DNA from: Apostichopus japonicus
Taxonomy: Eukaryota; Echinodermata; Holothuroidea; Aspidochirotida; Stichopodidae
Assembly: GCF_037975245.1 (NCBI RefSeq)
Contig: NC_092569.1
Span: 30,696,668 to 30,760,667, forward strand
DNA: 64,000 bases
Direction of reading: 5' to 3'
Shown: positions 4,126-61,200 of the stretch, in pieces
Numbering within the stretch: position 1 is the stretch's first letter
How the letters are laid out: every line of letters starts with the position of its first letter
Notes under the pieces: generated by a model
Seen by the model: the letters and a program-made list of their open reading frames with translations, nothing else
Database searches by the model: none
What the model was told of the DNA's origin: nothing
Position numbers and translations under genes: made by a program

Positions 4126-4628
4126 CTAATTTGATCTTTGGATTGCCTGTATTTTCATTGTTGTTGTTGTTATACCGCAATCAGAACCGTGAAGATTCTT
4201 CCAGAAGATACCGCGGTTATCGTTGAACAAGTAGTCACCGTTGAGATTGGAGTAGCCGCAGGAATGGACAGTTGTTTGGTAGACCGGGTCTAGGTTTGCG
4301 CAGCATCTGTTTTTTGGATAACCATTAAAATAACAATAATAATAACCACAACCGTCACACCTAAAGCATTTACAATGTGGACGACTACGAGGGCAATAAA
4401 GATTGCTGTCACAATCACTATGACAGATACAGTCGGTGTACTCGTAGTCTCCTGTAGCTACGCGGTTGCTGAATGAGAAGCAGTTGCTGGTAGAGCCCGT
4501 ATTGCTATCGTCTGGATACCACCAGCCACCTCGGTGTTTTTCTGCGCAGTCGAAGCTACTCGATCCATCATTGTCTTGATCGTGCGTACTAAATCGTTTT
4601 CCTGAATATGCCCCCATAGCGTTGTTAC
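4126..4628 (-). CDS. copy A last exon: fibrinogen C-terminal part with Cys/Tyr-rich insertion
   Basis: Open exon, phase 1 entry after a ccag acceptor, running to the stop. It carries the calcium-site region (DQDNDGSSSF), CAEKHRGGWWY, an insertion of about 80 residues rich in Cys and Tyr, then SCGYSNLNG and the terminal TTTTMKIQ. Length 503 bp, against 482-500 in the other copies; the difference lies in the insertion. It belongs to a pseudogene but has no lesion of its own. Confidence 0.8.
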
Positions 4629-16844: not shown

Positions 16845-17344
16845 TCATTGACTTGGCCGTATTTTCATTGTTGTTGATGTTATACCGCAATGAGAACCGT
16901 GAAGATTCGTCCAGAAGATACCGCGGTAATCATTGGACGAGTAGTCACCGTTGAGATTGGAGTAGCCACAGGAATAGAAATTTGTCTCGTAGACCTGGTT
17001 TTTGTTTCGGCAGCATACCTTATCATCGTAATAGCAATCATAATAATAACAATGACAATTGTTATAAACACTACAGCCATCACAATTAGAGCATTTATGA
17101 TGTGAACGGCTAGAAGGACAGTCATAACAATAATTATAGCAGACACAGTCAGAGTACTCGTATCCACCTGTAGCTACGCGGTTGGTGAATGTGGAACAGT
17201 GGCTGGTTGAGCCCGTACTTCCATCGCTTGGATACCACCAGCCACCTCGGTGTTTTTCTGCGCAGTCGAAGGTACTCGATCCATCATTGTCTTGATCTCG
17301 CGTACTAAATCGAAATCCTGAATTTGCTCCCATAGCGTTATAAC
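16845..17344 (-). CDS. copy B exon 9: fibrinogen C-terminal part with Cys/Tyr-rich insertion
   Basis: Phase 1 entry after ttccag, 500 bp to the TGA. It contains FSTRDQDNDGSSTF, CAEKHRGGWWY, the insertion (with extra cysteines in NNCHCYYYDCYYDDKVCC), SCGYSNLNG and STTMKIRPSQ at the end. The most cysteine-rich insertion of the four copies. Confidence 0.85.
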
Positions 17345-35903: not shown

Positions 35904-36385
35904 TCATCGAACAGAACGAATTTTCATTGTTGTTGTTGTGATACCGCAATCAGAACCGTGAAGATTATGCCAGAAGATACCGCGGTAATCGTTGGACCAG
36001 TAATAACCATTCAGATTGGAGTAGCCGCAGGAATAAAAAATTGTCTCATAGACCGGGTTTTTGTTTGCGCAGCATCTCCTTTGATAATAATAATAGCAAT
36101 GGTTATAATAACCACAGCCATCACAATTTTGGCATTTCTCATGTGGACGGCTAGAAGGACAATATTCACAATCATTATAACAGTTACAGTCAGAGTAATC
36201 GTAGCCACCTGTAGCTACGCGGTCGCTGAATGAGTAGCAGTTGCTGGTAGAGCCCGTGCTACTATCGTCTGGATACCACCAGCCACCTCGGTGTTTTTCT
36301 GCACAGTTGAAGGTACTCGATCCATCATTGTCTTCATTGTACGTACTAAATCGATATCCTACATTTGCTCCCATAGCATTGTTAC
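35904..36385 (-). CDS. copy C exon 8: fibrinogen C-terminal part with Cys/Tyr-rich insertion
   Basis: 482 bp after ttccag, phase 1 entry, to the stop. FSTYNEDNDGSSTF, CAEKHRGGWWY, insertion with CNCYNDCEYCPSS, KCQNCDGCGYYNHCYYYY and RRCC, then SCGYSNLNG and TTMKIRSVR. The shortest insertion of the four. Confidence 0.85.
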
Positions 36386-39300
36386 CTGGAAGGAAATTAG
36401 AGAACAATTAATGAAGGTGTTTTGTTGTAAAATACGAAGTTTTTTCCTTTTTTTTTATAAATGGACATTATTATGTCACTTTGGAGTCGTTTGCTGTAGT
36501 TGTCGGGTATATTTGCGTTTGTTGTTTGTTCGTTTAAGTTGGGCTTACGTAATATTTTTGTGCTGGAGTCAAGTTTGCGGATTTTACTGGAGTGGTTTCA
36601 ATTCTGCCAATTCGTCTGGGACCTCATTTGCGAACATCGTGAAGTATTACAATATATTTCTTTATTTATATATTGTATTCATATTAATATTTCTCTTCCT
36701 TCGACCAAAATTAAATAATAATATAGTACTGAGTGTCAGATTAACAGAATTGTAAACGGTGAATTTGTTGAAGTATTCACTTTTGGCATTTTGTACAATA
36801 TATAGTTTTGACTGTTTAATATATGCTAGGTGTTCAAATAAGAGTGAGAGAAATATAGTGTTTGATTGTATCATTCATGTCATCATCTTTTCTCGTGATA
36901 ACGTCTTATATTTCATACTGACGGATTACTTTAATTTGACATGTTTTTTGAATGTTTTAAGCTCGACATTTGCGAGCAAGCAGACGCTACTAACTATATA
37001 AAAGTGGTTGATATGATATATTATGTATGATGTTACAACAATATATCATTTTACCAACACGTGCTAAAATGCAAGGCAATTGTTTAATGAGCAATGCGCA
37101 CGGGACTCTAAGCTCGACATCTAATACAGTTTGACATTAGTGTATACACTATATTTATAACATGACCTGAGTATATGTACGAGTACAAATCCAAGAGTGT
37201 AATTACGACTACAGGTAGTTATGCTAGAATGATATTACGTAATAACTACAAGTATGCGTATGATTGACATTTAGCACAATACATACCAGCATTTCCACTG
37301 TAGCCACTCAATGACAGTCGGTATCTGTCTCCCTCGCTACTGATTATAAATGATGAATAACGGCTGTAGTATGTTGATCCTTCCCTGTTTGTCTTTTCTA
37401 TTCGAAGTTGGTAGGCTTTTTGATTTGTCAATTTGTATATTTTTTCGTTGCCAATCCAATGATCTCCTGTTGGGATTCCAAACCCGTTTTTGTACTCATT
37501 CCAGTTTCGAGAAAAGCTGACGGAGCTACTTGTACGTCGTTGCAAAATCTAGAATGAAAATCAACGAGTTTATCGATTGGATGTGAGTAATATATGAAAT
37601 ATGTCATTTTTACTACAATAATTTAGAAAAATTGATTGGTGAAGGTCAATATCCGATTGGATTAAAGCAATAGGAAGATGGATCAATTGAATCAAATAAT
37701 TGAATTATTTCATTAAAATGTTAGTGAACGAAGTCCTGTTATATGAGAAAATGAAAAGTTAACATGGTAAAGTTCTGTTTTTTCAATTGTTAAAACTTAC
37801 TGTCCAACCACCACTAGACATTTCACAATAGACTTCAAAATTAGAGCTTCCAGCGGGATAAATTGTATATTCTCCGTTATTTGTTCTGTTTGCTGCGTAA
37901 AGATCAGAACAATCTCTGGGTCCACTGCGGGTACATGTAAGACCATCGCCTTCAAACCATTCGTTACAGTAACATCTACGGACAGCATTCCGCTCCTCGC
38001 AGGTTGCGTCTGCACTACAACTGTAACTCTCATTTGTAAGTACGTTACTGTTGCAAGTTATCCGTAAGGAACAGTCAGAATTAATGTAAGATTCACTCTC
38101 CTGGAAATGGTAAATGTTAAACGACATATTTCAGTGAAAGTAAAATCAATGTTTATTTGGTACAACGCTTGATAACGCTCTTGGAGTAAAACTGAATTTC
38201 TACTACAAAATGGTCGTGAGCGTTTTATATATATTAGGTAAAGTTCATCATTCTGGGTGTAATTGCTTTGGATGCCTTGTATTTTGCTAGGTCTCAATTT
38301 AGAAGACTTTTGCAAGAACAGGTAAAACGAAATAGAAGTGAAAATCTATATCATCAATAATCATGAGAATTAATAACATATATAATAAAGAGTAAGGTCA
38401 ATCAATTGAAATCCAAGATTTTATGCTAAAGTGTACGTATTACTGGTAAATATTAAGACTTGTGAACGGCATCATATAAACTTACTGCTAATACCACGTC
38501 TTGCCCTTGAACGTAACAGCCACATTGCTCTTGAGGTATGCAGCTGTTGCCAAGCACCATGTGGTTTTCTGTACAAAGACATCTCTCTGGATCCGCTGGA
38601 TCCGGTATGACACAATCATTCGGATTCTCACAAGTTCTTTCACATGTATTGTCATAATTATCCTTGTTGGATGAGCACCAGGTAATGGGTAAATCTGGGG
38701 AAATTGAATCCACAGCCAGTTAATCCTAGCTTGAAGTGTTAACTCGCTGTTGTGACATTACGTTATTAGATCATCGTGTTACCAACGTAATGCTCTGGCC
38801 GTTCAGAAGATTTGCTGATTGTTAACATAGGATTAAATATAAGCGGGATTTTTTATCGTTAAATTAAGGCTCATTCAGCTTATTCTCATTTATGTCACAC
38901 ATACAAAATAATATGACAATTTCAAGTACTCGACTATGGGATTCTATCAATATTGTTGTGTATCATAATCATTTCCTCCATTGGAACTTTTCTTTATGCA
39001 TTCTTTAATTTTCGTTTTGACTACAAAAATATGGAGAAAATCATTTAAAAAAAGTCTAACCTGTTATTCCTTCGACAACACCAAGACTTGTTATAGAATA
39101 ATTCCCCCGTTCATCGGCAATGCGAAAGTTGTTGTATGTCAAGGAATATGACTGGCCTGCATAATTCTCTAGCTCGATGCGCAGCTGGTACCTCTTTTGG
39201 TTTATCAAGTGAGCTAACTTTTCATTACCAATCAGAAATTCACTGCCTAAGAAACCAATTCCGTTTTTGTATTCGTCCCAGGTTCGATTAAAACCGATGG

Positions 39301-42300
39301 ATCCATCAACACGTCGTTGTATGACCTGAAGAATTCAAAAGATAGGTAGACAACTAACGGATATATTGCATTATCTTATGAACTAAACCTTATAGCCAAT
39401 ACGTGCGGCTCACATCAAGTACGAATAGGATAGAACACATTTGTGATATTGTGTTGTAAATTATGTTTATACATATTTAGAACACTACCATAGGTGTGCA
39501 CAGAAAACAAGTTCTCTAATCGTACGAAAAGTCAATGTTATTACACTGAGTAGTTTTGTTTTGATATTAAACTTCAAATAAACATACCTCGTACAAGATA
39601 TATCATCAGACACAATGTAAAACTAAAATGACTGAAAATGCCAATGTGTCCTATAAAGTGTGTCTCCGAGGGTAACGTATGTGATTGTAAGTGTTCGCGT
39701 CTTGAAATATTTTACTTACTGTCCAACCTCCAGATGAAGTGTTTTGATCACAATATGTCTGAAATGGTTTAGGATACTGGTCAGGTTTAATCAGGTATAC
39801 ACCGGATTTGGCGTTGGTAGAAGAGCATTGGTTAAGTATTTCATGACAATCCCTTGGATACTCCGGAGTTTGGAATAGAAAATACTGCAAGTCTAGCACC
39901 AAAATATTGTAAAGAAAAAGATGAGAAAAAATCGTAAAACTGTTGCAGATACAGTTCCATATGTAAAGAATTATTTCAAGAGAAATATAATATATGGCTA
40001 CATTGCAATAGATTTGTTTTAACTACACAGTAAACATGACGTGGTAACTACCATGAACCATAAGAAAAGGTATTCAAACATTTTCGGCTAATATTCATGG
40101 AGGCTAATATAAGCAAGTATATTTTATTTGAAAAGAAAATCTGACGCAAAGAACTACCGTGAATCTGTGACGACATGGTCTCAGAAGCAAACATGATTAG
40201 TAATAGCTTTCCTCGACAAGAGGGTATGATTTGGACCTATTTTCAGCTTACAACAATCTCAGGATTATCAACACTGACCTGAGATTTGAAAGTGCCAAAT
40301 TATTGAACAAGCCTACAGTATACATAGTCTAAACAAAGTGCGTGTTTTGTCCCTTCTTTAATTGTTACTTGCCATTTAGCCTCTGAAGAAGATCCTGCTA
40401 GGATCGAAACGTCAGGCCAACTTACTTTGCACAAATTACTAACAAATATGAATAAACATAATCGGAAGTATTTTTATTGCTTGAAATAAATATTGACTAA
40501 TGACTTGTATTTCTTTCAGTTTTATTATCGCTGAGAATCTACAATTTACCCCAAATCAGCGCTAAAACTACTTCAAAAACAGTGCAAGGAAATTATTGAG
40601 AATTGTAAATTATTATTTATCTTACAAATTGAAATAGGAGAAAATACCACATTTGAAGTACATCTAGATGGTTCCTTTCTATATTAATTTTTTTTCCAAA
40701 TTATGATTTAGATAACAAATTTAAGTTAATTGGTTAGCTTTCGGAAGTTTATATTAACCGTTACCCTTACAGAACGAAAACTTACTTGAATCGTTGACTC
40801 TTGTGCTTGATGATATCTGATGTAACAAAAAATAAAGGAAATGTACGATTAAGCAAAGTACATTCTGAAGAAACAATATCGAGTTAAGAAGGTTGTACGA
40901 AGGTCAATGTATCACAAAAAAAGAACATACGCTTATCTATTACACTTTCATTTTAACATATACTATCATTTTAAGTTTAAATATACAAAACAGACTTGTA
41001 TAGCCTCTTAAAATACAATCTGATTTCGCTTTTGATTCAAATAAATGAACTATTTTCAACTTGAAAATTATTGTAGAAAAAGATGATAAGAACGGAAAGA
41101 AAATTTCACATTCCAAAATCTAAGCAGTAATAGAATGTTTCGCAATCTTAATATTTCTTTGACATTGATTTTACTGCTTATAAGCATAGCTAATATTGAA
41201 AGTAGGTTTTATTGAATAGCATTAATTGTTTAAACATATGATTATATGTATGTTTGCATGTCTTCTAATACCTCTCATTTATCATTACTATAAATAAAAC
41301 AATCATAAGTCACCATACACTAACTTAACTAAACGATCATAACTACGATAAGCAGATGAAAGTAATAATTCCCTGTGCATTATGCTAATTGAAATGTAAA
41401 TGACATATTATATGAGAAAACGAAAAAAAACCTACAATATATAATTGAAAGAAAATCAAAAGTACAAACATCAGCATTATCCTAGTGGTGTTCGTATAGT
41501 AAGTTAAGTGCAATTATCTATAGCGGGAAACTTGATATATTATGCTAATGAGGTACTTATATACTGGGACAACGTGCAATTTACCCTCAAAAGCTTGAAA
41601 ATAGCCAAGTTTTGAAAATATGTCCAAAAATAGAGCAACCACAATTGAAAATTCATCCGTTGTGAAGAAGAGTATTGTTTGTTGCAATACGTACGAGCCA
41701 CTTGATTGACTTGGACAAGCATCAACAACACAATATATCTTGTTTGTCTTCAACCTCACAAAACACGTATACATTTTACGCCCCAGCTACTGACGCTAAT
41801 TGTCAACATTCGTTCGCCTGAAAGCTACAACTGCTGCAACAACTTTTTGCGACAACAACGTTTTGCTCATAGAAAATATGTCGATATTTTTAGAAATATT
41901 GTACTCAGAACGTATGCAATAACTAAGGCTTTCAATGTACACACATTATGCAGAGTTATCTGTAACCTACAAAAACATTGTTAAAGTAATATTTTATATT
42001 TTTATAAATAAAAAAAAAACAAGTTTAAGAGTAGAAAATATTTGGGCAAGGTCGAACACATGTACGACGATTCACGCTCAATCAAAATAACCTTATGTAT
42101 AATAAAAAAGACAAGTTATCGTATCCATAACGAAAACTGTTTTGATTACCCTTTGTCTACATCAACAAAAGCGGATACTCTTTTGGCAACTTTACGTGTA
42201 CTGTATCTATCTAAGACAGAACACCATTCTTGAAAGCCCCACAACATGCCCGTGAACCCAGCTCCCATGAAAACACATACTTCCTCATAAAAAACGTACA

Positions 42301-51774: not shown

Positions 51775-52268
51775 TCATTGACTTGGCTGTATTTTCATTG
51801 TTGTTGTTTTTATACCGCAGTCGGAACCGTGAAGATTCTTCCAGAAGATACCGCGGTTATCGCTGAACGAGTAGTCACCGTTGAGATTGGAGTTGCCGCA
51901 TGAATAGAAGGTTGTTTCATAGATCGGGTTTATGTTTGCACAACATCTTTTTTTGTAGTTATTATATGTGTAACAAAAAATATAACCACAGCCGTCACAA
52001 TCATAACATTTGAAATGTGGATGACTAGAAGGACAATAATGATAACTGCCACAGTCATTATGACATTTACAACCAGAGTACTCGTATCGACTTGTAGCTT
52101 CGCGTTTGCTGAATGTGTAGCAGTGGTTGGTAGAGCCCGTACTACCATCATCTGGATACCACCAGCCACCTCGGTGTTTTTCTGCGCAGTCGAAGGTACT
52201 CGATCCATCATTGTCTTCATTGTGTGTACTGAATCGATGCCCTGAATTTGCCCCCATAGCATTGTTAC
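51775..52268 (-). CDS. copy D exon 8: fibrinogen C-terminal part with Cys/Tyr-rich insertion
   Basis: 494 bp after ttccag, phase 1 entry, to the stop. FSTHNEDNDGSSTF, CAEKHRGGWWY; insertion with CKCHNDC, YCPSS, KCYDCDGCGYIFCYTYNNY and RCC; then SCGNSNLNG and TTTMKIQPSQ. Confidence 0.88.
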
Positions 52269-55200
52269 CTGGAAAATAACAAATAATTAGGGAATGCTTT
52301 GTATTGTTATTTTGTTCCAATTCTGACCGTTCGTTTATGAACTTTAGTTAATAACACCGTTAATTATATCAATAGTATAATTCATACCATTATTTCAACT
52401 ATTGCAACGAATATTTTATAATAAAGCAATTTTAAAGGTTCGTGGGAGATGAGTAGAAATGTAAACATCTAACTATTTGAAGTACACATTCTCTGCTTAT
52501 TGAAAAGTAAAGTTTTAACTTTGCAGCATAGTAGGTTTGCATATTAGAGGAAAAGATGTTTAGTGCTTGATTTTTTCATCTTTGTAATCATCGTCTCCAG
52601 TGAAACGTCTTATATTTCATCTGACGTTTTTACTTTTATTTAATATCAATGAAATACTGATTAACTTTTATCTGACGATACAGCGATAAAGACGATACAA
52701 ATGATACAGCTCATAACGATATGATCCAAGTCAGGTACTGCTCTTTGGGAAGGTAAAAAATGCAATTTTTTGTGGACTGATCACTCAACAAAATGTCGCA
52801 CTATTTTTTTGGTTTTTATTGTAGTATTATTGGCTTTTAAATAAATTCCATGAAGTAATATTGAATTGTCAACTGAAACTTAATTTTCTTCTCGTTCGGA
52901 AACGATAAAGCATATTTACTGAAATTCAATGATTTAACTCTTTAATAATATATTTCAATAACAAAGAAAACTGTTGCAGCGCTTACATACTAGTTGTTAC
53001 TCTTTATCGTGTCTACTACATGAGTGAAAATGCGAGAAAGTAAATGGAAAAATATATTGAAGATGATTGATATAGTATATCACGATGTAACAATATATAA
53101 ATATACATACACATACTAAAATCGAAAGCAATTGTACAATAAGCAATTAGTACGGTACTCTAAGCACGATGTCTAGTATATAGTTCTACATTAGTCTCTA
53201 CACTAGATTTACAACATGACCTGAGTATATGTACGAGTAAAAATCCTACAGTGTGATAACGACTACAGGTAGTTATGTTAGGATCAGATTACGCAATAAC
53301 TACAAGTCTGCGTATGATTGACAGTTATCACAATACATACCAGCATTTCCATTGTAGCCACCCAATGACAGTCGGTATTTGTCTCTCTCATTACTGATTC
53401 TAAAAGATCCATAACGGCTGTGGTATGTTGATCCTTCCTTGTTTGTATTTTCTACTAGAAGTTGGTATGAATTTTGGTTTGTCAATTTGTATATTTTATC
53501 GTTGCCAATCCAGTGGTCTCCTGTGGGAATTCCAAAACCGTTCTTGTACTCATTCCACTTTCGATAAAAGTTGACGGAGCTACTTGTACGTCGTTGCAAA
53601 ATCTATAAAGAGAATATACGAGTGTATCAAAAACATGTGTAGTGTATAAAATGTCTCATTGTGCTACAATAATTTACAGAAAGTAACTGGTGTAGTTCAA
53701 TAATAGGATTGAGTTAAACTGATAAGACGATGAATAAATTTAATCTACTTCTTGACTTATTTTATTTAAATATTAGTAAAGGAAGCCCTGTCATATGAAA
53801 AATAACAATTTTAATATGATAAAGCTTTTGTTTGTCAATAGCCTAAACTTACTGTCCATCCCCCATTAGACATTTCACAATAGACTTCAAACCCAGAGCT
53901 TCCAGCGGGATAAATGGTATATTTTCTGTTATTTCTTCTATCGGCTGCGAAAAGATCAGAACAATCTCTCGGTCCACTACGGGTACATGTAACACCATTG
54001 CCTTCAAACCATTCGTTACAGTAACATCGATGGATATTATTTCGCTTCTCGCAGGTTGCGTCCTCACTACAGCTGTACCTCTCACTTGTAAGTACGTTAC
54101 TGTTGCAAGTTATCCGTAAGGAACAGTCAGAATTAATGTATGTTTCACTCTCCTGGAAAGATAAATGTAAAACGACATATACCAAAGAAGTAAACGGAAT
54201 TGCCATATGACACATTTGTAACGTATTTGATCCTTCACTGAATTACTACTACTAAACGTTAATGAGGGTTTCATCATCTTGCCTTGTATTTATACTAGTT
54301 TTCAAACTATAATTATTGTGTGCAAGAATATGTAAAACCGAAACGGAAATGCAAATAAATAATCATGCAAATTTATTATAAATCATTTCCATTTCCAAAA
54401 CGGAAATGCAAATAAATAATCATGCAAATTTATTATAAATCAAGAAAACATAAAGTTAATCAATTTGAATCAAAGATTTTATGTTAAAGTTTTGTTTTCA
54501 TATTATTTGAGATTTGTGAACTGCATCAAATAAACTTACTGTTAATACGACACCGTCCCCTTGGACGTAACAGCCACATTGCTCTTGAGGTATACAGCTG
54601 TCGCCAAGAATCATGTGGTTTTCTGGACAAAGACATCTCTCCGGATTCGCTGGATCCGGTATGACACAATTATTTGGATTTTCACAAGTTCTTTCACATG
54701 TATTGTCCAAATTATTCTTGTTGGATAAGCACCAGGTGATGTTTAAATCTGGGCAAGATTAAACCACGTCAATTTAATCCTACATTGAAGTGTTTATTCA
54801 CTGCTATGACATAATGGTATTAGAGAACGTTTCTTAACATCCTGATGGTCTAGCCCCTGGGAACATTGTTCATTGTTAACATAGGATCAAATTTAAGTAG
54901 GATTTAATATGGTTACGGTTACTTCAACTTATACTCATTTAAGTCACACAAAAATGATACTACATATTTGTTTTAAATATTTGACTGAGTGAACCAATAT
55001 ATTTAGCTATGTATCATATTCGTTTCTTCTGTTGATATATTTCTTCAAAATTTCTATTTTCCGTTTGGAGTACAAAGATATGGAGATAATAATATAAAAA
55101 ATCTCACCTGTATTTCCGTTGATATCACCAAGACTTGTTATAGAATAATTCCCCCATTCATCGGTAATGCGAAAGTTGTCGTATGTCAAGTAAATTGACA

Positions 55201-58200
55201 GGCCTGCATAAATTTCCAGCTCAATTCGCAGCTGGTACTTCTTTTGGTTTATCAAGTGAGATAACTTATCATTACCAATCAGAAATTCACTGTCTAAGAA
55301 ACCAATGCCATTTTTGTATTCGTCCCAGGTTAGATTAAACCCAATGGATCCATCTACGCGTCGCTGTATGACCTGATAAATTCAAAACAAAGCTACACAA
55401 TTAACGGATGTCTTTAATTCTCATATGGTCGTAACTTCAAACCAAACTTTCTTGCTCAGTTTAGGAAATAGAGTATGATACACTTAATTTAATTGATTTC
55501 ATTACATTAACAATTTATACAAATCGGCCCAAAATATGTTTACATCGTACAAGGTATATCATCCGATACACTGTAAAACGAAAATGGAATTAAACTTTCA
55601 ATGTGCTATACAATGCGTGACTTTTAGAATAAAGTATGAAATTGTAAGCGTACACTTCTTAAAATATATACCACTTACTGTCCAACCTCCAGATGAAGTG
55701 TTGTGATCACAATATGCGGGAAATGGTTCCGGGTACTGGTCAGGTTTGATCAGGTGTACACCGGATTTGGCTTTGGTAGGAGAACATTGGTTAAGTATTT
55801 CATGGCAATCCCTTGGGTAACCCGGAGTTTGGAATAGGAAATACTGCAAGTCTAGTAACATGATAATTAAAAGAAGAAGATCAGAACAAACAATAAAACT
55901 GTAAATAACAGCATTTTATGAAATGCGTTTCCATATGCAAAGGAATGTTTTAGCAGATATGTGGTATATGTTTACCTTGTAATAGCTTTCTTTTCACTAC
56001 ACGGTATACAAATGATATGGTAATTAAAATAAGACATATGCACATTGAGGCTAATTGAAGCAGGTGTATTGTGTTTGAAATGAAAAATATAACGCAAAGA
56101 ACTACTATAAATGATGAAACTGTAGTAACATGGTTACAGAAGCCAAACATGATGAATAATATTTTTCTTCAATAAAAGCGTATGGATGGTCCATATTTCA
56201 CTTCTTTTGTTTTGGTTTATCAATCTAATTTTGATCAGCACTGGACAGTGATTTGAAGGAGTCAAGTTATTTTCACGAGCCTACATAATTAAATTGCTAA
56301 CAAGTGATTTTTTTTTCTTTCTGTAGATTTTAGGCCCATTTTCCTGGTGACCTTTAGTAAGCCTTATTACAGTTGCCCTCGTTTGGTTACATTTTCCTGT
56401 GAGATCACTAAATCCATCAAGTATTATTCAATACAAGTTTTTATTTATGAATGTAGGACATCCTACAATAATATTTCCCAAACTGAAGCCAGTAATGAAA
56501 AATTCCACAAAAGTGAATTTCGTCGCACAGAAACGTTTTGATATTACTATAAACTACTCACAAGTGTGAATAAATCTAGTCTGAACTTTCGTAATTGCGT
56601 GAAGTAAACTATTGAAGCTAATGGCTTTTCGACGAGTATCGACAATGTGCCACAATCAGCGCTTAAACTATTTCAATACCCGACAAGGAAATTATTGAGA
56701 ATTGTAAATCATCAAACATCTTTATAACTATAAAATATGAGAAAAGTATCACATGTGAAGTACACCTGGATACTTCCTTTCCAAATAAAAATGATCCGAG
56801 CTTTTATCTAGATTACACATTTCTGTGGAATGGTTAATTCTTAGAAGTATATGTCAACCCTAACAGGGAGTCCAGCATTAAGACTAACAGAACGACAACT
56901 TACTTGAATTGTTGACTGTTGTGCTTGACGATATCTGAGGTTAGACAAAATTAAACCAAGTGTACAATTAACTGAAGTACATTCTGAAGAATCAGTGTCA
57001 AGTTAAGTAAGTTGTACAAGGCAAAGGCATACGGCCTACAATTCAGGAAAGACGCCAATCCATTAGGCCTCACCTTAACATATCCCATAATTCTATGCTT
57101 ATACTTAACAAACATAATTGATATATCTATAGCTCATTAAAAAGAACACTTATCGTTTTTGGTTCAAATAAATAAACCCTTGTTTTAAAATTGTATATCA
57201 TTATAGAAAAAGGTGCTACGAATGAAAAGAAAAATTCAATATCTAGGCAGTAATAGAAATGTTTGGCAATTGCTTCTAATTGATTTTACTGCTATAAGCT
57301 TAGTTACTATTAAAAGTTGACAGAGTTTAGTAATACTTTTCATCTACTTCGCTTACCCGTCTAATTTTCATCTTATCTAAGCTGATAAGAAGTAAAATTA
57401 TTTGAGAAGATATTAAAATTGGTAACAGTCCAGTGTATTACAAGCGCTGGTATGACAAAGGTATCCGTTTTGTTTGCGATATTGTCACAGTTGATGGCAG
57501 GTTATATAGTTTTGACAATTTCATCCAAAAATATCTTGTTTCCACAAATGTTGTAGAATATTATGGTATTATTAACTCCATTAAAACTTTTTGGAATGGA
57601 CCTGCTCTAGATGGGAATATGGATATTGCTTTTCCAAACAATTGCTACTTTAACAAAATGCTTCACAATGGTATGTTCCGTTCGAAAGATATTTACAAGA
57701 AGTTACTACAGGAATCGAAGTTGATTCAGAAATCCTATACGAAATGGTGTGGTACTCTCGATATTACTGAGGAAGATTGGTCTTTTTATTGTTCAGTGCC
57801 ATTGAAGGGTTCTAGTGATGTTAATTTGGGGCGGTTTCAGTATAGGCTGCTTCAGAGGATTATCCCGTCCAATAATTACTTGCATTTGATAAAAGCAATT
57901 ACTCATGATACTTGTACTTTTTGTCATAGGTATGTTGAGACAATTGAATATTTGTTCTATTATTGCCCACTCTTAGTTAGGCTTTGGAATCATCTCCAAA
58001 CTATGTTAAATAATATAGATATTGGTATAGTACTAGACATTAAGACAGTGTTGTTTGGTGCGGACATTGCCAGGGAGCTGGATTTGATTATAATGTTAGT
58101 TAAGAAATTCATTTTCAACTGCAAAGTACGGAAAGAAATTCCATTGCAGAATAACTTACTATTGTTTCTGAGGGACTATTTTCTATTACCAAAAAAAAAA

Positions 58201-61200
58201 AAAAAAATGCGTAATATGAAAGGCAGTGTGTGGAGGAAATATTGGTACCTTTGGTATAATTTTTTACAACTTCAGAATGTATTAAAATAAATACGTTTTA
58301 GTTTCATCTAGGAATTTTCCCTAATTCACCACTAGAGTGCTATATTATGTTAAGTTATAGTTGCAAGAGAAATAAAAAAAAAGAGAGAAAAAAAAATATT
58401 AAAGTTTCGAAACAACAGTTAATAAACAACGTATATCAATTGAAAATATGACTTTTTGTCTGTTTTAAAGTCTTTCTGATTTCCGTCCAAAAACAACAAT
58501 AGGTTACCATACACTAACTTACTTAAACGATGGAAAGTAATACTCTCTGTTCAATATGCTAATCGAAATTTAAATGACATATTATCTGAGAAAGAGAAAA
58601 GAAAACTACAGGATATAATTGAAACAAAAGCATACATATTCGAATATGCATATTAATGTATAATATATTTCGCAGTAAAGAACCCCCCTTTAAGTTGAAT
58701 AATATTGACTACAATCGGTAATTTTCAGACTTGTTGATATTTTGTGAAGACTGGTGCAATTTAACAAAACGGTTTTTTCATATGTTTACCTTTTCGTATT
58801 CTAAGAACACCTACCCATAAAAACGGTAACTTTAAGGCTTTGCAATGTGTGCATGTCTCGTATACGCTTACATAACATATTGCCAACACGAAAATGTCAA
58901 ATTTATGCAGAAGCGATGTTATTCAATGATCCACTGTAGATACGTACTGACAGGCTAGAAGAGAACAATAATTGCTATTTACATATTAAGTTGTTATGAA
59001 GTTATCCATATACATATTATGTTTGTTAGTTTAAAGAAAAAGTACATGGGGTTACTGCATTAGTCCTGCACTGAAGTAAACGTATTCTAGTTAGTCAATT
59101 GTAGTTATAATATAACAACGAGACACTTCTTGGAAAGGAGGTGCTAATTGTTAGCATACATTCGCGTGAAAGCTACATTCGTATTATATTTGCGTACCTT
59201 TGTTTGTTAAACGACTAATGTTCGACAAAATCCTGTTGCTTTTTCAAAGATAATCTATATCGCGCTCAGAATGTCTGCACTAATTAAGACTCTCAACGAG
59301 TACAGAGCTAGCTGTTACATAGGAAGCATGGTCAAAGGCATGATTTACTTTCTTACAAAGAAACAATTTTTTGATCGAAGGAGAACATATTTTGGGCAAG
59401 AACTAGCGCTTGATGGAGAATTTATATCACTCATGATGTTGTTTTTCCAACTAATCTAAACTCAACTACCTCAACTAAGTGTAGGTTGAGAATCTTCACA
59501 AAACATGTGATGGAACTATCGCGATTTTCTTTAGAGAAACGATAAAAACGACGTTTTGCGCTCAATCAAACACCATTCTTGAACGCCTGAATGGACCCGT
59601 GAATACTAAAATAGTCCCTATAAAAACACATACTTGTTCATAAAAAAATACCGTGTATGAGTTATTATATCGTCCATCAGTGGCATAACTCTCTTACATC
59701 ATCGTAAATCAAGGATCAGACATAATACCATAAAGTTTCATACACTTTTGTTTCTCTTGATATGACAAGAAGTCAAATTTTACGCCTGTTCATCAACCCC
59801 TGTACAATGGAAATATAGATGTTTCTTTAAAGAAAAATATGTTGAAGAAATATTAATTTAAATGTCCAATTACGTCCAATTAAAAGACATCTCATTTATC
59901 CTATTGAATATGTCATATAAGTACTGTCTCAATGTTATGTTTGTATAGATACTGGACAACTCTTTCAATGATCACAAGATATACATGTATTGACAATATC
60001 CAATAGTTCGTTCTTTACAATAATTATATTTGGAAAAAGGAGCTAATAATACACCTGTCGTGCAATAATTCTTCTTTACAAGGATATTTGTAACTAAAGA
60101 AGATATGATAAATTTATTTGCCTTTAAATAGTTTTCGTCAACTTATTAATTTACAGCAAATTAAAGGTATCTGATAAACATAAAAAGTACATTTTAAAAA
60201 GGAAAATTGGGATACAGTATGTTAATAGTATGTACATTTTGAGAATTCTTGACAATCAAACATCATCTAGAGTCACTCAAAACAGCACGATTTTGAATCT
60301 TGCAGGCATGATCACGTGTTTTATTGTAACATCTTAAGAATTTTTATGTTACAGACTTTGCAAGGAAGAAGCGAGGAAATGTTTACCTTTCTGTTTTGTC
60401 GCCAGCGTGGAAAGAAAGCTCAAAATCATAAATTATAACATGCTAACAGTTACAATTAGGAACTTACAACGGAACGCACTACGAAAGAATAGACGGATTT
60501 ATTTATCGTTTTGTCTGGGATTATTGCGTGATGTTAATCAACAAGTCTATTATATTTCTCTCTTTTTTCTGGAACTTGGTTTGGAAGAACTTTAAACATA
60601 GTGTTTTTGTTTTTTATGAGCATGAATATTTTTTTTTTAATTTTCGTGATTACGTAGACGATTGTTCGGATGCTACCGGTACATGTTCAAAACTAACAAC
60701 GTTTCACATTAACTATTTTAATTATACTTCGTTTTTATTTCCTGATATTTTACATAACATTTAGGTTTCATTGTCGTAGTTTATTTTTAAAGCAACGTTT
60801 CGGAGCAAACTTTTAACAAAGATACTAACAATTTGAATATGATACATATTTACACTTGGTTGATGATTATTATATTGTCATGACGCTTCAAAAGTGATCT
60901 CTATAGGAAACGGAAATGTCAGAAATAAAATACATATTAACTGACACAAGTGTGATACGATCATTTGAGCGCCAAAGTGAAACAATATATTGGCGAATAT
61001 ATAGTCTTATATTAACCAGCAAAGTCGTAGACGAACTACTTAAATATAAGGTTGAAATATTTAAAAGAAATAATATTGACATCGGCATTACTTGATCATG
61101 AATAATAAAGTCTCACGCCAAATAATCATTTATTAGTTACAATAATGAACATAAACTAGTGAAGATAATTTTTAAGTATTGAGCTTTTATCATACGGTAT

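Follow-up and report, generated by a model that had tools for sequence, protein, structure and literature searches.

A cysteine-rich, variable insertion in the pocket loop of a clustered FReD lectin family of the sea cucumber Apostichopus japonicus

A long cysteine- and tyrosine-rich insertion interrupts the C-terminal fibrinogen domain (FReD) at a minimum of 79 places on a single chromosome of Apostichopus japonicus, where a conserved frame of cysteines carries two variable cores. The insertion, its scaffold, the contrast in rates between cores and framework, the repeat character of the cores and the parity of the cysteine totals were demonstrated at the sequence level. The reading that we moderately favour is that the pocket loop of a FReD lectin became a disulphide-bonded knob, which would have been diversified by gene duplication and coding-repeat change, for recognition.

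In the window (the whole stretch of 64,000 nucleotides analysed here), a preliminary description had reported a fibrinogen lobe interrupted by about 75–85 residues in four copies, A to D (4126–4628, 16845–17344, 35904–36385 and 51775–52268). Indeed, reading of the ORFs identified the four copies as open terminal exons, all on the minus strand, in which 81–87 residues (from the one following WWY to the one preceding the canonical Cys of C-x-x-SNLNG) are inserted and interrupt the contiguous canonical pocket loop WWY-xx-C (Table 1). Copies A, B and C display 71%, 70% and 73% identity to copy D, which is L009 in the family numbering. The PF00147 profile matched copy D in two stretches with 35.4 bits, above its cut-off of 22, and the exon start given at 52268 was correct, as TTTTCCAG lies directly upstream of it. 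Further upstream, gene D includes additional FReD, EGF-like and Cys-rich exons, several of which are repeated at the other copies. Note that the EGF-like exon also gave a TILa match, below the cut-off of that family, and that the Cys-rich exon, which resembles a TIL domain, had no Pfam match with E of 0.01 or less. Genes C (~39060–39886) and D (55107–55845) both start with a partial FReD, followed by TIL-like and EGF exons, and the last part of this first FReD is apparently missing. A membrane anchor derived from a hydrophobic stretch upstream of gene D (55968–56144) was considered and dropped, since the stretch is matched in copy C only piecewise. In addition, an ORF at 57406–58290, whose zf-RVT match is weak (E 2.6e-5) and lies below the cut-off, is probably the remnant of a non-LTR retrotransposon.

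Table 1. Features of copies A to D and of gene D, in window positions
Feature	Position	Strand	Basis
Copy D terminal exon, second half of the fibrinogen C-terminal domain with the insertion, stop codon at its end	51775..52268	-	ORF; PF00147 E 1.3e-8
Copy D insertion, 85 residues, WWY to canonical Cys	51901..52155	-	family comparison
Copy D insertion, N anchor (PDDGSTGSTNHCYTF...YSGC), conserved	52069..52155	-	family mean column entropy 0.63
Copy D variable core V1	52018..52068	-	family mean column entropy 1.82
Copy D mid anchor, KCxxCxxC motif	51988..52017	-	family alignment
Copy D variable core V2	51946..51987	-	family mean column entropy 2.13
Copy D C anchor (CCANINPIYETTFYS) and canonical Cys	51898..51945	-	family alignment
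Copy A insertion (L021), 85 residues	4261..4515	-	family comparison
Copy B insertion (L038), 87 residues	16971..17231	-	family comparison
Copy C insertion (L024), 81 residues	36030..36272	-	family comparison
Gene D upstream exon, same FReD	53341..53602	-	also found at copies A, B and C, with 87-90% identity
Gene D exon, EGF-like domain and FReD start	53851..54154	-	EGF_3 E 1.9e-7, Fibrinogen_C E 4.3e-6; repeated at the other three copies
Gene D Cys-rich exon	54540..54746	-	repeated in copy C
Gene D, part of preceding FReD	55107..55372	-	PF00147 positions 44-137, E 4.8e-21; repeated in copy C
Gene D, start of preceding FReD	55672..55845	-	90% identity to copy C

Using insertion D as the query over a genome of 671,581,487 bases in 35 contigs, we found the insertion at no fewer than 79 places, all retrieved (L009–L087), all on one chromosome (C9) and grouped in clusters of 14, 5, 44, 15 and 1. 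This number is a lower bound, and it corresponds to 80 matches, two of which came from one broken exon. Chance is therefore excluded as the source of the insertion in copies A to D. The reading frame was open through the insertion at 64 places and broken at the remaining 15, and the open copies carry 62 distinct insertions of 71–105 residues. It should be noticed that the duplicates L010 and L062 were counted once, that the 15 broken copies stand outside all open-copy counts, and that L020, one of the 64 open copies, has its FReD start out of frame and was excluded from the pair, parity and model counts; its codons were kept in the composition counts, with the exception of the first region in the counts made region by region.

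A small loop at the ligand pocket of fibrinogen domains is closed by a disulphide between the Cys that precedes WWY and the Cys that precedes SNLNG (C326–C339 in human gamma). Both members of this pair (columns 21 and 174) are Cys in 61/61 distinct open copies, and since the pair closes the pocket loop, the insertion is located within that loop, which agrees with the position beside the pocket proposed earlier. The insertion-bearing exons have kept the DxDND motif (a Ca site), CAEK, WWY, C-x-x-SNLNG and MKI, and as in ficolins and tachylectin-5A, which are FReD lectins (PF00147), the sequence on both sides of the insertion aligns with C-terminal fibrinogen domains (ficolin-1, tenascin-R, tachylectin-5A). 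Mean column entropy rises from 0.28 in the FReD before the insertion and 0.63 in the N anchor to 1.82 in V1, is 1.02 in the mid anchor, reaches 2.13 in V2 and falls to 0.75 in the C anchor and 0.47 in the FReD after it, so that the loop is variable, as described before, when compared to its flanks. The frame of cysteines noticed earlier is real and nearly fixed: Cys occupies the eight columns of the scaffold in 59, 61, 58, 60, 57, 58, 48 and 60 of the 61 distinct open copies, and three Cys columns outside the scaffold do so in 61/61. However, the earlier statement that the core is almost only Tyr, Asn and Cys was too strong for the family, as V1 contains 38% Tyr and 17% Cys, and V2 37% Tyr and 6% Cys.

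The family also differs from other FReD lectins by an additional Cys within its final strand (HGSDCGI), present in 61/61 long and 23/23 shorter insertion-bearing exons and in 0/8 canonical exons. Ficolin-type acetyl-binding lectins have aromatic pocket residues and a His after the canonical Cys. HMMER aligned the new tail Cys to a Tyr of ficolin-1 GYKYSY, a region that contributes to the acetyl pocket, so that the aligned Tyr position is occupied by Cys here in 61/61 copies; the residue after the canonical Cys is Gly in 62/62 aligned rows and His in ficolin-1. The insertion alone matched no Pfam family, whether two insertions or 20 members were used (best E 0.039, at chance level), and a 20-row insertion profile gave no PDB hit with E of 1 or less, which is the outcome of the database search proposed with the preliminary description. 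The PDB entry 1wys, which appeared with the whole exon (E 0.025) and with a 4-row insertion profile (E 0.14), was gone with 20 rows, and a known inserted domain was rejected, as neither kind of match stood with 20 members. AlphaFold, applied to the four window copies of the exon, gave no confident fold for copy D (pLDDT 32, pTM 0.23).

Exons with far fewer residues at this site are found in the same genome. A genome query with the insertion removed also matched canonical FReD exons; the eight that were read (L088–L095; seven on C9 and one on C7) all carry 2 residues where the long copies carry 71–105, which is consistent with the earlier statement that only a few residues separate these motifs in canonical domains. 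A query with a 24-residue insertion gave at least 150 matches, long forms among them; 23 shorter exons were read, 20 of them from these matches (no C2 match included) and three retrieved earlier, and they carry 21–36 residues at the same site, falling into distinct classes there. In a tree built without the insertion, the long insertions form one clade (support 99/81), and long and short forms together stand apart from the canonical exons (100/98). A larger tree was built from 53 rows (22 selected long, all 23 shorter and 8 canonical exons, insertion excluded); each insertion class forms one clade in it, with weaker support for the mid (91/83) and short (86/87) classes. Both trees are limited by a small number of columns (67–70) and the lack of an outside root; the simplest reading of these sequences would be a single origin of the insertion, followed by growth.

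The number of cysteines argues strongly for the disulphide lock that had been proposed for the loop. Total exon Cys was even in 48 and odd in 13 of the 61 distinct long copies, and among the shorter insertion-bearing exons 21/23 had even totals (the odd ones being L097 and L098). In the WWH class the total is again even: the insertion holds four Cys, to which the tail and an extra upstream position add one each. L102 has WWH too, but its place is in the short group. When copies were merged by single linkage at 80% identity, 24 clusters had even and 6 odd majorities, with one tie (p 0.0014), and at 70% identity 9 were even versus 2 odd (p 0.065). A model in which Cys change depends on parity outperformed a parity-blind one on two trees of the long copies (p ~1e-4), and the fitted Cys count leaves the unpaired state ~3.5 times faster. 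A model with steps of two also outperformed single steps (p 0.0008 and 0.002), but brought no gain once parity was modelled; among 24 disjoint nearest pairs, Cys number had changed in 9, five times by two, three times by one and once by three. The even totals and the tree-aware model thus lend strong, though indirect, support to intrachain disulphides, and by its sequence the insertion is very probably disulphide-bonded.

The cores change faster than the rest of the exon. In the 24 disjoint pairs, V (V1 and V2) accumulated 0.233 changes per codon versus 0.059 in the framework, being faster in 22 pairs and slower in 2 (p 3.6e-5), and net gain or loss of codons made up 59 of the 178 V edits, 26 of them from two pairs. 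Over 64 close pairs, which are not independent, the per-base difference was 0.018 in the framework, 0.179 in V1, 0.057 in the mid anchor and 0.114 in V2. L014, L016, L017 and L018 provide an illustration, with identical V1 and 0–2 framework base differences, yet four different V2. When compared to non-coding sequence, V distance per base exceeded that of the upstream flank in 11/14 pairs and that of the downstream flank in 17/24 (medians 0.090 for V, 0.026 upstream and 0.051 downstream, with single flanks up to 0.37); this contrast is weaker than the one with the coding flanks, which is about fourfold. The comparison of dN/dS proposed earlier for insertion and domain gave, over 114 pairs, 0.51 in V1 and 1.09 in V2 (the core alignment being unsure) versus 0.16 and 0.26 in the FReD before and after the insertion, with 0.28–0.44 in the three anchors. 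The ratio is elevated in the cores but not clearly above 1, and strong positive selection was not supported.

The cores have a marked repeat character. Tyr is written TAT:TAC 421:46 in V1 and 212:28 in V2, versus 267:362 in the five non-V regions summed; the FReD after the insertion alone has 11:156, a ratio strongly influenced by a small number of conserved columns. With TRF set to a low threshold, TAT/TTA/ATT arrays occurred within V in 46/61 copies, and arrays of period 3n lay mostly in V in 51/61. Whole TAT codons are gained and lost between near-identical copies, and since part of the variation is of this kind, a mutational mechanism alone could yield it. Restriction of the core to one-base neighbours of TAT was dropped as a special signature, because composition predicts 78% of core codons to be such and 76% were seen. 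Among the transition products of TAT, TGT (136) outnumbered CAT (39) and TAC (66), counts from which shared ancestry was not removed. V1 and V2 lengths were anticorrelated (rho -0.54, not tree-corrected).

We propose that, in tandem-duplicated FReD lectin genes, the short loop from WWY to Cys has grown within terminal exons into a disulphide-bonded knob of 71–105 residues. Its conserved scaffold (N, mid and C anchors, about eight Cys and the new tail Cys) bears the cores V1 and V2, rich in TAT and its one-base neighbours (TGT for Cys, AAT for Asn, GAT for Asp, CAT for His, TTT for Phe and TCT for Ser). TAT codons are gained and lost as whole units, probably by slippage as the length-changing mechanism, and Cys numbers tend toward even totals, which would lead to new disulphide patterns. 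The knob may cover the ligand pocket, with the new tail Cys as its tether, and the repertoire would be germline-encoded. Its most likely purpose would be to recognise diverse surfaces, microbial or self, in the manner of FREPs and ficolins, a judgement for which we have moderate confidence.

The same observations are to be weighed against a tolerated coding microsatellite, namely a spacer loop with TAT expansion and contraction, in which only folding (Cys pairing and frame) is selected and the cores have no recognition role. The turnover of whole TAT codons between near-identical copies, the TAT-class arrays of V (46/61 at the low TRF threshold), dN/dS of 0.5–1.1 in the cores, a core codon set equal to the composition expectation and the weaker contrast with non-coding flanks all agree with such a spacer, which we nevertheless judge unlikely, although it deserves serious attention: the open copies have kept their anchors, Cys parity and tail Cys, the length of V1 runs opposite to that of V2, and TGT exceeds CAT and TAC, with the reservations on tree correction and shared ancestry given above. 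An adhesive or matrix role, in which Tyr (perhaps oxidised) and Cys would cross-link matrix or clotting proteins and length would tune mechanics, appears improbable to us. The Tyr/Cys composition fits it, and published work reports fibrinogens among the body-wall ECM glycoproteins of A. japonicus (PMC7599334) and FREPs that rise during regeneration (PMC5638244), neither being tied to the insertion-bearing genes; in contrast, even Cys totals suggest intrachain pairing rather than Cys free for cross-links, and a structural glue would presumably need no near-identical paralogues that differ mainly in their cores.

That the segment is an intron or an assembly artefact, missing from the protein, we regard as very improbable. 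There is a GT at the WWY codons, and an AG stands 17 bases before the canonical Cys codon in 37/64 copies. However, in 18 of the 64 open copies the stretch between 45 bases upstream and 6 bases downstream of the start of that codon lacks any AG and therefore a splice acceptor, the frame is open at 64/79 places, the Cys columns are conserved, anchor dN/dS is as low as given above, and the insertion lies inside an exon that is the last one in canonical genes too. A spliced-out segment was rejected on the open frame, the conserved anchors and the missing acceptors.

Ultralong CDR H3 loops of bovine antibodies are Tyr-rich and have a stalk-knob shape, SpTransformer (185/333) of sea urchins is another protein, not known to contain a FReD, and mollusc FREPs diversify mainly in their Ig-type part. 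According to PMC7366855, Cys totals are even in 84% of 10,869 bovine antibody V regions, and the ultralong loops use TAT, GGT and AGT codons, one step from TGT; a Cys-rich loop and a bias to even Cys (48/61 and 21/23 here) are thus common to both. Variation comes there from somatic hypermutation of an antibody loop, whereas here it lies in germline gene copies, with FReD as the carrier and no immunoglobulin fold, V(D)J or AID. The resemblance is one of working only, with no homology. A CDR-H3-like echinoderm knob in the full sense, i.e. a pocket loop turned into a disulphide-reshuffled mini-domain, with TAT-slippage diversity in a germline array and TAT-to-TGT changes seeding disulphides, is an idea that we advance only tentatively; under it, these repeats might differ from one animal to another as well, or even through somatic change. 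If the knob is a recognition surface, it would be a convergent invertebrate answer to the problem solved by ultralong antibody loops, and the mutational device would be a trinucleotide repeat with Cys among its one-base neighbours, in place of AID or recombination. The recognition idea is directly testable with near-identical paralogues whose differences lie mainly in V1 or V2, and a conservative reading would still leave a coding repeat under Cys-pairing constraint inside a lectin pocket.

Among invertebrate families, SpTransformer is likewise an echinoderm multigene family with internal repeats that is implicated in immunity (PMC8634487 and PMC9623053), and mollusc FREPs are likewise FReD proteins with diversified sequences (PMC13428168), for which an insertion like the sea cucumber one was not found in the part of the literature searched. 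Expanded and clustered FREP genes have been described in A. japonicus (Zhang et al. 2017, PMC5638244), and the insertion locus probably belongs to this expansion; the accessible part of that paper makes no mention of the insertion, repeats or Cys parity. FREP-A of Parastichopus is named in PMC2702171, and LPS treatment is followed by an increase of a FREP both in coelomocytes of A. japonicus (PMC4264123) and in the gut of Holothuria glaberrima (PMC2702171). Thus, the FREP expansion is already published, while the insertion-bearing FReD variant is common only as far as this genome goes, so that the refuting condition named earlier applies inside it alone, and is undescribed in the literature searched, which lay mostly outside subscription papers and supplements; the same literature gave no paper on repeat slippage in immune receptors.

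One part of the insertion array is decaying, given the 15 broken places (L022, L028, L030, L032, L035, L036, L051, L052, L054, L059, L067, L075, L084, L086 and L087). Frame shifts broke L084 and L086, and the other 13 hold 14 stops in total (10 TAA, 3 TAG and 1 TGA). Note that TAA and TAG, which account for 13 of the 14, differ by a single base from the TAT and TAC codons so abundant here, and stops may be a possible cost of the Tyr repeat. The exon proteins of L009 and L010, and of L061 and L062, are identical although hundreds of kb apart, which suggests recent block duplication or haplotype redundancy. Finally, the wider FReD superfamily appears, among the matches listed for the 24-residue insertion query, on C9 at 4.2, 6.3, 11.0–11.7, 13–19, 29.4–29.7 and 32–35 Mb, and on C2, C15 and C22.
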